Origin: Chloroflexota bacterium
GTDB lineage: Bacteria; Chloroflexota; Dehalococcoidia; FW602-bin16
Assembly (NCBI GenBank): GCA_004297765.1
Contig: SCTZ01000111.1
Span: forward strand, 1-64,000
Direction: 5' to 3'
DNA: 64,000 bases
Shown here in pieces: positions 13,519-16,037 of this stretch; the stretch's first letter is position 1; every line of letters begins with the position of its first letter. The position numbers and the translations under genes are program-made. The notes beneath the pieces were generated by a model. The model ran no database searches, had not been told where the DNA came from, and saw only the letters and a program-made list of their open reading frames with translations.

Positions 13519-13736
13519 TACAATTAGCCGAAGTGAAGAATGCCGTCACCCTGCCCCTACGGGGCGTTAGGTGAGGCGTCGGCGTGAATATACGCCACTG
13601 CCCAGAAACGTCGAGAGACGCCCACGGGTGTAACAGGTCTGGTCGAATTAAGGCTTGATCTAATGTGGCTCCAGCAATGAACGTCACGCCGCTGCCAAAA
13701 CTCGGACGAGTTCGGGACGGTTCATCGCAGGGATGC
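13519..13736 (+). promoter_or_regulatory. M-box (ykoK leader) Mg2+ riboswitch controlling mgtE
   Basis: The leader contains the conserved M-box blocks: CGTTAGGTGAGGCG at 13565-13578, then CACTGCCCAGAAACG and GAGAGACGCCCACGGGTG at 13596-13630, AACAGG, and the 3' block AATGTGGCTCCAGCAATG around 13662-13680. Order and spacing follow the Bacillus mgtE leader as I know it. A TACAAT at 13519-13524 may be the -10 box; its -35 is poor. A terminator follows directly and the next large gene is mgtE. High Mg2+ is expected to favour the compact fold and termination. Confidence 0.9.
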
Positions 13737-13774
13737 TGTGCCCCGCTCGAACGAGAGGGGCATTTTGTTGTGGT
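13737..13774 (+). terminator. Riboswitch expression-platform terminator
   Basis: TGCCCC at 13739-13744 pairs with GGGGCA at 13757-13762, extended by CTCG/CGAG inside. The hairpin is followed by TTTTGTTGTGGTTGTT. Position after the M-box fits a transcription-attenuation platform. Confidence 0.8.
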
Positions 13775-13799
13775 TGTTAAGTAGGAGGTGCCAGTCCGA

Positions 13800-13967
13800 A
13801 TGGACGCAGACCCGGGTAGTAGCGACCGTCGCTACAGGATACCAATCCGTATGCACACGCGCGTCTCGCGGCGACCGGTGGTGCACCTGGTAGAGATGTC
13901 GGACAACGACATGGACTCGGAACGCCAGGACGATGCCCACTCGCCCGCGGAGCGTCCCGCTTCCTGA
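13800..13967 (+). CDS. Possible 55-aa small protein between the M-box and mgtE
   Basis: ATG 13800 opens a 55-codon frame ending TGA 13965-13967. A strong AGGAGG lies at 13783-13788, 11 nt upstream, just beyond the riboswitch terminator. The product is charged (begins MDADPGSSDRRYRIPIRMHT, then EMSDNDMDSERQDD) with no membrane segment. It would be expressed with mgtE under Mg2+ control. No family is recognised. The acidic stretch could bind divalent cations, which is speculation. Confidence 0.4.
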   Translation: MDADPGSSDRRYRIPIRMHTRVSRRPVVHLVEMSDNDMDSERQDDAHSPAERPAS

Positions 13968-14243
13968 TCCCCCTCCTTTCCCCTTCTTAGTGTGGGCCGG
14001 GAGCGGATCAAAGCTGGACGCTCCCGCCGCGAAACGCCATCTTCCAGCAAGGCCGATCGATACTCGGCAGTGGCTCGCGCTGCACTAGACCATTTGTGGC
14101 CCGAGCTACGCATGCGGCGCGCACCACAGAGTGTGGGCCGATCCGGCTGGCAGAAAGAGCCTCTGCAGAAAAGGCGGAGGCATATCTTTCCGTGTCTCTC
14201 GATGGCTGCCAGCCACGACGCATGAACGAACGGAGGTGGCGCA

Positions 14244-16037
14244 ATGGTCTTCTTCAGCGATCTTGTCAAACGACCCGTCTACGATGCGCAGAATCGCAAG
14301 GTCGGTCACATTGCCGATCTTGTGGTCTCGTTGAGCGACGTGTTTCCACGCGTCGAGGCCCTGATGGTGGCCGCGCCCCGCGACGGGCGCATTCCCTTGC
14401 TGACAGACGTAGTCTACGTGCACTGGCAGGACGTGACCAACCTGGAGGAGCCGCAAATCTACCTGCGCGTCGCGCGGGATAACCTGCAGCCATACGCCAT
14501 GGAGAATGGTGAGTTGCTGCTAGGTCGTGACATCATGGACAAGCAGATCGTCGACACTCTCGGCCGACGGATCGTGAAAGTCAACGACCTGAAGCTGGCC
14601 CAGATCGGCGGCGTGGCTAGATTGATCGGGGCAGACATCAGCCTCCGCGCGTTCCTCCGGCGGCTGGGAGCGGAGCGCCTCACCAACCTGCTGCGCCTTC
14701 CACTACCGGAGCGCCTGATTACCTGGAACTACGTCGAGCCGCTGGGCACAGAGATGACCGACGTCAAGCTCGTCGTACCCCGGACGAAGCTGGGAGAGCT
14801 CCATCCGGCCGACATCGCCGACATCCTGGAGCAGATGGAAGCCGACGAGCGCGCCGCTGTGCTGCAAGACCTCTCTGACACGGTCGTGGCGGATGCGATC
14901 ACTGAGTTGGAGCAGCCGATCCAGACCAGCGTCATGAGCGAGTTGGATAGCGAGCGTGCATCGGATCTCCTGGAGATCATGCCACCCGACGACGCGGCGG
15001 ATATTCTGGGCTCGCTGCCGCCAGAGAAAGCCTCGGAGTTGCTCTCTCGCATGGACGTCGAGGAGGCCCGCCAGGTCCAGCAGCTCCTCCAGTACCCAGA
15101 GGATACGGCCGGCGGCATAATGACCAGCGATGTCTTCGTGCTGGAGTCCACGCTGACCGTTGACGATGCCATCGCGAAGCTGCGTCGTGAGGCGCCACCC
15201 AAGGAGTCGATCTACTATCTGTTTGTGGTCGACTCTGACGAGCGCTTGATCGGGGTCGTATCGCTGCGCGATCTGGTGGCCGCCAGTCCTCAGACAAGGA
15301 TCGAGGAGGTCTTGGACCGCGACGTCGTGAAGGTCCGGGTAGACGACGACCAGGAAAAGGTCGCCGGCATGATGGCGCATTATGACCTGCTGGCCGTACC
15401 CGTGGTAGACCCGGCAGGACACCTACTCGGCATCGTGACCGTCGACGACGTTCTGGACGTGGTACACGAAGAAGCCAGCGAGGACCTGTCGCAGATGAGC
15501 GGCATCACGGTGGACGATCTGGAGCGCCGGGGCTCGCTGTGGAAAGCCGCTCTCGCCCGCCTGGAATGGCTGCCGGCGGCGCTCATCGGCGGAACACTCG
15601 CTGGGGTGGTCCTGCAGGTCTATGCGCCATCAATCGACCCGCTAATCTTCTTCGTACCCCTACTGCTGATCGTCGTGGCGACAGTGGGTGGTCAATCTCT
15701 GGCCGTGGCGAACCGGGCCATCTCGTTGGGACTCGGGCACGACATGATCCTACGCGAGATGGCCATCAGCGGGCTGGTCAGCGTGGTCTGCGGCTTGGGG
15801 GCGGGGCTGGTGACTTTGCTGTGGCTGGGTCAGCTACAGATAGCATTGGTGATGGGAATCAGCCTGTTCGCGACGCTTGTCATATCGGCCACAGTGGGCA
15901 CGCTCTTGCCCCTCGCCCTTGGCCGCCTCGAGGCCAGTCGAGCGTTGATGAGCGCCCCAATGCTGTACCCAGTGATCGCGGCTTTGAGCATCTTTGCCTA
16001 CGTAACCCTGGCTACCTATACGGGACCGCTGAAATAG
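14244..16037 (+). CDS. mgtE: Magnesium transporter MgtE with N-terminal PRC-barrel-like extension
   Basis: A 597-aa protein, longer than the usual ~450 aa. Residues about 1-165 look like PRC-barrel-like segments (VYDAQNRKVGHIADLVV; IVDTLGRRIVKVNDLKL). Then comes the MgtE N domain of helical repeats (LHPADIADILEQMEADER ... MPPDDAADILGSLPPEKAS), the YPEDTAGGIMTSD motif, two CBS domains (about 295-415), a connecting helix, and five membrane helices from about 430 to the end, with PLLLIVVATVGGQSLAVANR holding the pore. MgtE is a homodimeric Mg2+ channel gated by cytosolic Mg2+. The M-box upstream gives a second layer of Mg2+ sensing. The start has GGAGGTG 7 nt upstream. Confidence 0.95.
   Translation: MVFFSDLVKRPVYDAQNRKVGHIADLVVSLSDVFPRVEALMVAAPRDGRIPLLTDVVYVHWQDVTNLEEPQIYLRVARDNLQPYAMENGELLLGRDIMDKQIVDTLGRRIVKVNDLKLAQIGGVARLIGADISLRAFLRRLGAERLTNLLRLPLPERLITWNYVEPLGTEMTDVKLVVPRTKLGELHPADIADILEQMEADERAAVLQDLSDTVVADAITELEQPIQTSVMSELDSERASDLLEIMPPDDAADILGSLPPEKASELLSRMDVEEARQVQQLLQYPEDTAGGIMTSDVFVLESTLTVDDAIAKLRREAPPKESIYYLFVVDSDERLIGVVSLRDLVAASPQTRIEEVLDRDVVKVRVDDDQEKVAGMMAHYDLLAVPVVDPAGHLLGIVTVDDVLDVVHEEASEDLSQMSGITVDDLERRGSLWKAALARLEWLPAALIGGTLAGVVLQVYAPSIDPLIFFVPLLLIVVATVGGQSLAVANRAISLGLGHDMILREMAISGLVSVVCGLGAGLVTLLWLGQLQIALVMGISLFATLVISATVGTLLPLALGRLEASRALMSAPMLYPVIAALSIFAYVTLATYTGPLK

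Follow-up and report, generated by a model that had tools for sequence, protein, structure and literature searches.

Leader peptides of the MgtL and MgtQ type cause ribosome drop-off at low Mg2+, an effect that is counteracted by L31. The mgtA leader, which encodes MgtL, is not known to contain an M-box, and its transporter is of the MgtA type. According to the accessible part of PMC11282234, two acids in the EPDP motif of MgtL, Glu2 and Asp4, lead to ribosome dissociation at low Mg2+, and this alters the fold of the leader so that mgtA is transcribed. Asp2 and Glu5 of MgtQ act likewise on the translation of mgtB, as described in the accessible part of PMC8092293. The mgtE gene of M. abscessus is preceded by an M-box and a ribosome-protected uORF, a homologue of vcgB (PMC4974804, accessible part). 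The published case closest to the one considered here, by its description, is the mycobacterial Mbox-uORF2 (Rv1805A, Rv1535A; PMC12810186); the peptide is called mycobacteria-specific and its role unclear there, and MgtL is not named in the text.

The window, that is, the whole analysed stretch of 64,000 nucleotides, covers positions 1-64,000 of contig SCTZ01000111.1 from the assembly GCA_004297765.1 of a Chloroflexota bacterium (Dehalococcoidia; FW602-bin16). The estimated contamination of this assembly is 8.95%. The window contains an M-box, a terminator, an AGGAGG box, an ORF of 55 codons and an mgtE gene encoding a PRC domain, in this order (Table 1). The M-box is the sole Rfam match at or above the gathering score across the window, and the only match to RF00380 in the 5.6 Mb genome. 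The assignment to this family relies on a score above the threshold (44 bits for RF00380) and on an expression platform, the terminator T1, and both are present. As described for the ykoK M-box of B. subtilis (RF00380), the aptamer is combined with an intrinsic terminator. The T1 hairpin (-16.8 kcal/mol) is followed by a U-rich tail and was identified by a hairpin-plus-tail rule; it was absent from the output of a simpler terminator scan of the window. The product of mgtE matches TIGR00400 with 304.7 bits. What sets the arrangement apart from a plain M-box is the leader ORF inserted between riboswitch and gene, often accompanied by a second terminator-like hairpin. In a search of 100 genomes the M-box was found in the source genome alone, the 99 relatives without a match being no nearer than the same class. 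Given the estimated contamination of the assembly, its presence in this one genome may be due to transfer or to a foreign contig.

Table 1. Features of the M-box-mgtE region, in positions of the window
Feature	Position	Strand	Basis or remark
M-box (ykoK) Mg2+ riboswitch aptamer	13556-13719	+	Rfam RF00380, 131.9 bits, E 2.1e-29
T1, intrinsic terminator of the riboswitch	13738-13771	+	hairpin 13738-13763, then TTTGTTGT
Ribosome-binding site AGGAGG of the leader ORF	13783-13788	+	sequence; duplex energy -10.6
Leader ORF, 55 aa + TGA, MDADPGSSDRRYR...	13800-13967	+	acidic/Pro start D2, D4, P5
Early in-ORF hairpin (ORF nt 16-44)	13815-13843	+	-10.6 kcal/mol
Candidate region 2, end of leader ORF, GGAGCGTCC	13949-13957	+	10 nt upstream of the stop codon's last base
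Candidate hairpin CGGGAGCG...CGCTCCCG	13998-14026	+	read from sequence
T2 candidate, GCCTCTGC-AGAAAAG-GCGGAGGC	14159-14181	+	-13.5 kcal/mol, poor U-tract
mgtE	14244-16037	+	Pfam: PRC-barrel, MgtE_N, two CBS, MgtE

The sequence-only reading had assigned the strong AGGAGG box after the riboswitch terminator to the short ORF rather than to mgtE, and this assignment stands. The box is the strongest ribosome site in the spacer between the M-box and mgtE and lies 11 nt before the ATG at 13800; mgtE starts further downstream, as had also been stated, at the ATG at 14244 with a separate GGAGG at 14232-14236. Since the ribosome site behind the riboswitch serves the short ORF, the latter is under M-box control.

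The leader ORF starts with MDADPGSS, and arginine residues follow after Asp2, Asp4 and Pro5. With leaders of the MgtL/MgtQ type it shares its place as a short ORF with its own ribosome site before an Mg2+ transporter gene, and the acidic residues and proline within the first five codons (MDADP). MgtL of E. coli and Salmonella is likewise a short ORF in the leader of an Mg2+ transporter gene, and D2 and D4 of the window ORF occupy the positions of Glu2 and Asp4 in MgtL, with an adjacent proline (accessible part of PMC11282234). However, the window ORF has 55 codons, many of its relatives have one acid, and the Rho terminator belongs to MgtL. Salmonella MgtQ, encoded between mgtC and mgtB (PMC8092293, accessible part), has a similar acidic start and also precedes an Mg2+ transporter gene; it is described there with ribosome destabilisation and alternative stem-loops. 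Unlike the window ORF, MgtQ has 8 codons and, according to the same part of that paper, controls the translation of mgtB inside an operon. The likeness to the enterobacterial peptides would be one of working principle only, as peptides of this size are too short for homology. The mycobacterial uORF2 is also a conserved short ORF behind an M-box; it is translated, and its conservation is mainly N-terminal, with a fixed proline. On the other hand, this proline is at position 7 (Pro5 in the window), and a translational platform and Rho take the place of the intrinsic T1 of the window.

The leader ORF is only weakly coding-like, at 0.03 bits per codon; real-gene stretches of the window average 0.22, and 86% of them equal or exceed the score of the ORF. 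This score is also attained by 2.6% of the off-frame stretches, by 8.6% of the intergenic ones and by 25.8% of those on the reverse strand. The score is borderline, and codon usage by itself decides little. The ORF has no match in Pfam or NCBIfam and no second copy in its own genome, and tblastn with the 55-aa peptide found no homologue in the first 68 loci. Six weak matches to designed or consensus ankyrins among PDB sequences (best E 0.027) were taken as chance. The pattern SD..ATGGACGCNGAY has two other matches in the genome, opening frames of 489 aa and 26 aa; neither is beside an M-box, since the genome has a single one. A 26-aa ORF MDADISNTTIVEVYDLEESDSCFSFG with a good ribosome site was observed in the same genome at position 1511 of locus L122 (G000:C193), some 400 nt upstream of a frame that, by eye, resembles a methyltransferase. 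This ORF might encode the precursor of a modified peptide.

Counterparts of the leader ORF were collected by RF00380 searches in four overlapping samples: 400 Chloroflexota genomes from the whole phylum (43 with a match), 150 genomes of one class (24), 47 of another (11), and 151 of one order (7). The matches, the window and two loci on contigs labelled actinobacterial (L015, L017) yielded 56 distinct M-box loci; L082, with a truncated M-box match, was left out. At 47 of the 56 the space between the M-box and the transporter gene contains a short ORF, and for nearly all of these ORFs a ribosome site is visible. The ORF is missing at nine loci (L015, L017, L040, L041, L044-L047, L083), seven of which have no more than about 150 nt between the M-box and the gene start. 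The leader ORFs encode 22-67 aa, and the likeness between leaders of different loci is confined to about the first 8-9 codons. Outside the window the leaders begin with MDAGPSSS, MDDDSHK, MDEGGHRS, MEEGGSH, MDTDHSP, MDSDSKR, MSDGSN, MDVSSHS and others, mostly M-D/E/S followed by more Asp, Gly or Pro. By Pfam, the genes downstream of ten M-box leaders encode NRAMP (three), MgtE (three), ABC permeases (two) and MgtC (one), and the tenth protein (L058, 91 aa) has no Pfam match; further MgtE genes follow the leaders of L078, L100 and L105. About 25 downstream gene starts were set by hand as spacer ends, several being off by at least one base.

The leader also occurs apart from the riboswitch. All 17 mgtE loci of Ktedonobacteria that were collected (L002-L014, L016, L018-L020) have a start of the form MDAGPS[SHY]S[RH]... 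behind AAGGAGG, 402-629 nt before mgtE. No M-box was found at these 17 loci at the Rfam gathering score, nor at E<=1 in ten loci (six of the 17 and four pattern-match loci). The 18-base start pattern ATGGACGCNGGNCCNAGT occurs in 34 of 400 genomes, once in each, and the reversed pattern has 2 matches. Thirty of the 34 loci were examined: 21 leaders precede MgtE genes, four NRAMP genes and four ABC permease genes, some of the queries for these genes coming from the same loci (self matches), and in one case the contig ends after 28 nt. Since the leader precedes mgtE without an Rfam M-box at 17 of 17 loci, it can function independently, and to judge by these arrangements it is a unit that can be combined with an M-box or be free-standing. 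In the genomes G586 and G649 an M-box without a leader precedes an NRAMP gene (Pfam Nramp; L046 and L044), and a leader precedes mgtE elsewhere (L132 and L133); one M-box was found per genome. The two devices are split within one genome here, the M-box alone being at NRAMP and the leader alone at mgtE.

Two more elements were observed in the Ktedonobacteria leaders. CTTACTCGATGAG...TCGAGTAAGG, an element conserved in nine aligned loci (L002-L004, L006, L009, L010, L014, L016, L018), lies approximately 120-260 nt past the leader start and often has TGCCAGTAAGTCC behind it; it has no Rfam match at the gathering score. Just before the leader ATG in L002, L003, L007-L012, L014 and L018, a GGGC precedes AAGGAGG and is complementary to GCCC of codons 4-5; pairing of the two would leave the ribosome site in a loop.

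The 47 M-box leader starts were placed by eye with the motif known, and include a TTG start (L100) and a start with a weak ribosome site (L079). The counts for the 64 curated leaders (M-box and Ktedonobacteria sets) therefore lean towards the motif: at least one acid in residues 2-5 is present in 63 leaders, a single one in 41, and of the 31 distinct start hexapeptides 30 contain an acid and 18 two or more. At least two acids in residues 2-5 are present in 22 of the 47 M-box leaders, including that of the window. To avoid this bias, starts (ATG or GTG, 15-129 aa) were also chosen by the strongest Shine-Dalgarno pairing in the spacers of at least 150 nt, available at 48 of the 56 loci. By this rule Asp or Glu was found at codon 2 in 26 and within codons 2-5 in 36 of the 48 spacers. 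Dinucleotide shuffles (1892 picks) yielded 4.7% and 18.7%, respectively, and 413 natural windows taken from ahead of these M-boxes, 5.3% and 21.8%. The formal P against the natural windows, 7e-21, is too small because the loci are related, but the effect is large. As the sets also overlap, the pattern matches sharing species with the 56 and the 17 loci, none of these counts are independent.

The remainder of the peptide behaves differently. In nine groups of relatives, compared as equal-length ungapped sequences over the whole ORF from codon 2, the variable sites are distributed over codon positions 1, 2 and 3 as 31/37/31, and 56 of the 73 variable codons are non-synonymous and 17 synonymous (raw counts, without a neutral expectation). 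Without three more diverged pairs there are 10/14/14 sites, and 19 of 29 codons are non-synonymous. Thus the body of the peptide gives no sign of coding constraint in these relatives.

On the other hand, in the 26 MDAGP leaders Asp2 is always encoded by GAC, Ala3 by GCT and Ser6 by AGT (26/26), whereas Pro5 uses all four codons and Gly4 two. As codons 2, 3 and 6 are fixed in nucleotides, part of the constraint may be on the RNA. RNAalifold predicts a weak helix between codons 3 and 6 in a 12-row alignment, A1 (11 of the 17 Ktedonobacteria loci and L131; L007, L008, L014 and L018, which lack the strong hairpin described below, were left out). A hairpin starting near ORF nt 16-30 is stronger than in shuffled sequences (63 leaders, mean z -1.05, z<-1 in 52%); the same test 45 nt further on gave a mean z of -0.06 and z<-1 in 24%. 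In 13 of the 17 Ktedonobacteria leaders this hairpin is a strong stem (z <= -2.4) that begins around nt 20-22 and has up to 12 pairs; of the 16 pairs predicted in the 12-row alignment, 3 have changes on both sides. The corresponding hairpin of the window is no better than shuffles (z 0.17), although it is supported across relatives.

T1 was identified by the hairpin-plus-tail rule at 39 of 46 loci. A second terminator-like hairpin between the leader and the gene, T2, was found at 28 of 46 loci under each of two rules, compared with 8.4 expected from shuffles under the higher-stability rule and 13.0 under the stricter-tail rule. The T2 candidate of the window passes the former and fails the latter; the simpler terminator scan that missed T1 did list it. 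Pairing between the leader and T2 in the 28 loci with T2 has a mean z of -1.18, nine loci being at p<=0.05; the test under the stability rule used the strongest T2, and in L072 and L073 the true T2 is probably another hairpin. The window is among the nine, and its partner lies after the ORF. In five loci (L058, L059, L086, L088, L089; p 0.005-0.025) the 5' arm of T2 pairs with the last part of the leader ORF, 3-5 nt upstream of the final base of the stop codon. This arrangement would resemble an antiterminator hidden by the terminating ribosome. Exact complementarity between a leader stretch of 8-13 nt (CTCATCGAGTA type) and an arm further downstream was observed in 12 of the 17 Ktedonobacteria loci, compared with 2.6 expected for shuffled sequences, and 11 of the 17 loci reach p<=0.05; the arm is able to form its own hairpin too (nine of the 17 loci, alignment A2). 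Exact complementary k-mers were also considered as a general antiterminator signal of the M-box loci; only 6 of 45 loci are at p<=0.05, with about 2 expected, and this candidate was rejected as weak. Candidate region 2 of the window is an exact 9-nt complement of 14016-14024, with p 0.119 against shuffles, and this pairing is suggestive only; the candidate hairpin following the ORF would compete with region 2 for the same arm. It seems that antiterminator pairing is present in subsets of the relatives and is not general among M-box loci.

These observations suggest that the leader ORF is probably a second, ribosome-based Mg2+ sensor and not a small protein that has an independent function. Specifically, we lean towards a cis-acting leader peptide gene that forms a second Mg2+ checkpoint behind the M-box and is read by ribosome drop-off. 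The M-box, T1, the Shine-Dalgarno site, the ORF and the recurrent acidic start are supported by the sequence, as are T2 and the alternative pairings in subsets of loci; translation, drop-off, dependence on Mg2+ and the readout at mgtE are what we infer from them. At high Mg2+ the aptamer would fold, and T1 would stop the transcript ahead of AGGAGG. At low Mg2+ RNA polymerase would read past T1, and ribosomes would initiate at the leader ORF. With Met-Asp-Ala-Asp-Pro, acids and a proline would then be inside the ribosome as elongation begins, a stage at which 70S ribosomes with too little Mg2+ tend to come apart by intrinsic ribosome destabilisation (IRD); a hairpin meeting the ribosome front at approximately codons 6-9 would perhaps aid the drop-off. 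If the leader is completed, the ribosome would mask the end of the ORF, while the RNA that follows would take the stop form, which would be the second terminator in many relatives and the weak T2 or possibly Rho in the window. After an early drop-off the uncovered leader RNA would pair with the downstream arm, and transcription would get to mgtE.

Among the explanations considered, the drop-off leader peptide is the best supported because of the acidic start, the peptide body that shows no visible coding constraint, the Mg2+ transporter downstream and the second terminators of the relatives. It has to be set against the 26 MDAGP-type leaders, whose single acid makes a weak IRD motif and whose codons 2, 3 and 6 are fixed in nucleotides, against the nine M-box loci that lack the ORF and the limited spread of antiterminator pairing among the others, and, in the window, against the poor U-tract of T2, the z of the in-ORF hairpin and the p of region 2. 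A cis-acting leader whose signal is not driven by acids (ribosome occupancy, stalling at a hairpin or codons, or translation keeping Rho off a long leader) is next in rank, though rather unlikely. It would account for the nucleotide-invariant codons 2, 3 and 6, for the hairpin from about ORF nt 20-22 in Ktedonobacteria and for the 41 of 64 leaders with a single acid, and the case of M. tuberculosis is linked to Rho (PMC12810186). However, acids in 30 of 31 curated hexapeptides would not be expected from a codon or RNA signal by itself, and the target is often MgtE, just as MgtL and MgtQ act on genes of Mg2+ transporters.

The sequence-only reading had pointed to small regulatory proteins such as MgtS and MgtR, noting that the ORF is not hydrophobic. 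The latter remark is correct, as no hydrophobic stretch, and hence no transmembrane segment of the MgtS/MgtR type, is visible by eye in the translation. A protein acting in trans on MgtE or Mg2+ homeostasis, like MgtS, MgtR or the proposed role of Rv1805A, would fit the strong ribosome site of the ORF and its recurrent start; moreover, a mycobacterial counterpart is well expressed in reporter fusions, and it is present at an M-box-free locus as well (PMC12810186). Yet the peptide body without any sign of coding constraint, with its even spread of variable sites and the predominance of residue-changing codons, argues against this, as do the range of lengths, the alikeness of only some 8-9 codons and the lack of a family match for the window ORF, so that such a protein is improbable. 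A chance ORF behind a chance AGGAGG is less probable still. The borderline codon score agrees with it, as does the lack of a whole-ORF homologue in the own genome, the first 68 loci, Pfam, NCBIfam and PDB sequences. However, the same place and kind of start recur at 47 of 56 M-box loci, and acids at codon 2 are frequent even when starts are chosen by ribosome-site strength; it is the position and first codons of these counterparts that argue for a real ORF and make a chance frame unlikely. The initial observation is confirmed and its interpretation partly supported, for the ribosome site and the M-box control but not for a regulatory protein of the MgtS or MgtR kind. Comparison of the region between the M-box and the transporter gene, proposed there as a check, retains the short ORF and its start and does not retain the peptide body.

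A wider reading, which we put forward tentatively and hold somewhat less probable than its converse, is that in Chloroflexota a phylum-wide family of acidic-start leaders uses the elongating ribosome as an Mg2+ sensor for MgtE, NRAMP-type and ABC genes, often stacked with an M-box, and that the mycobacterial Mbox uORFs are the same device. The peptide of the latter would then perhaps have no role in trans, the translation of its first codons being the signal, which bears on the question posed in PMC12810186. The 18-base pattern is a practical annotation marker, being followed by MgtE, NRAMP or an ABC permease in 29 of 30 loci. Among the literature matches listed, mostly open-access, no paper addresses Chloroflexota leaders of this kind, to judge by title and beginning of the abstract, and Mg2+ sensing by ribosome destabilisation is described for enterobacteria only. 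If the proposed mechanism is true, such sensing extends to another phylum, where it is combined with a riboswitch, and one gene is gated in series by two Mg2+ sensors of different nature, the RNA aptamer and the ribosome.
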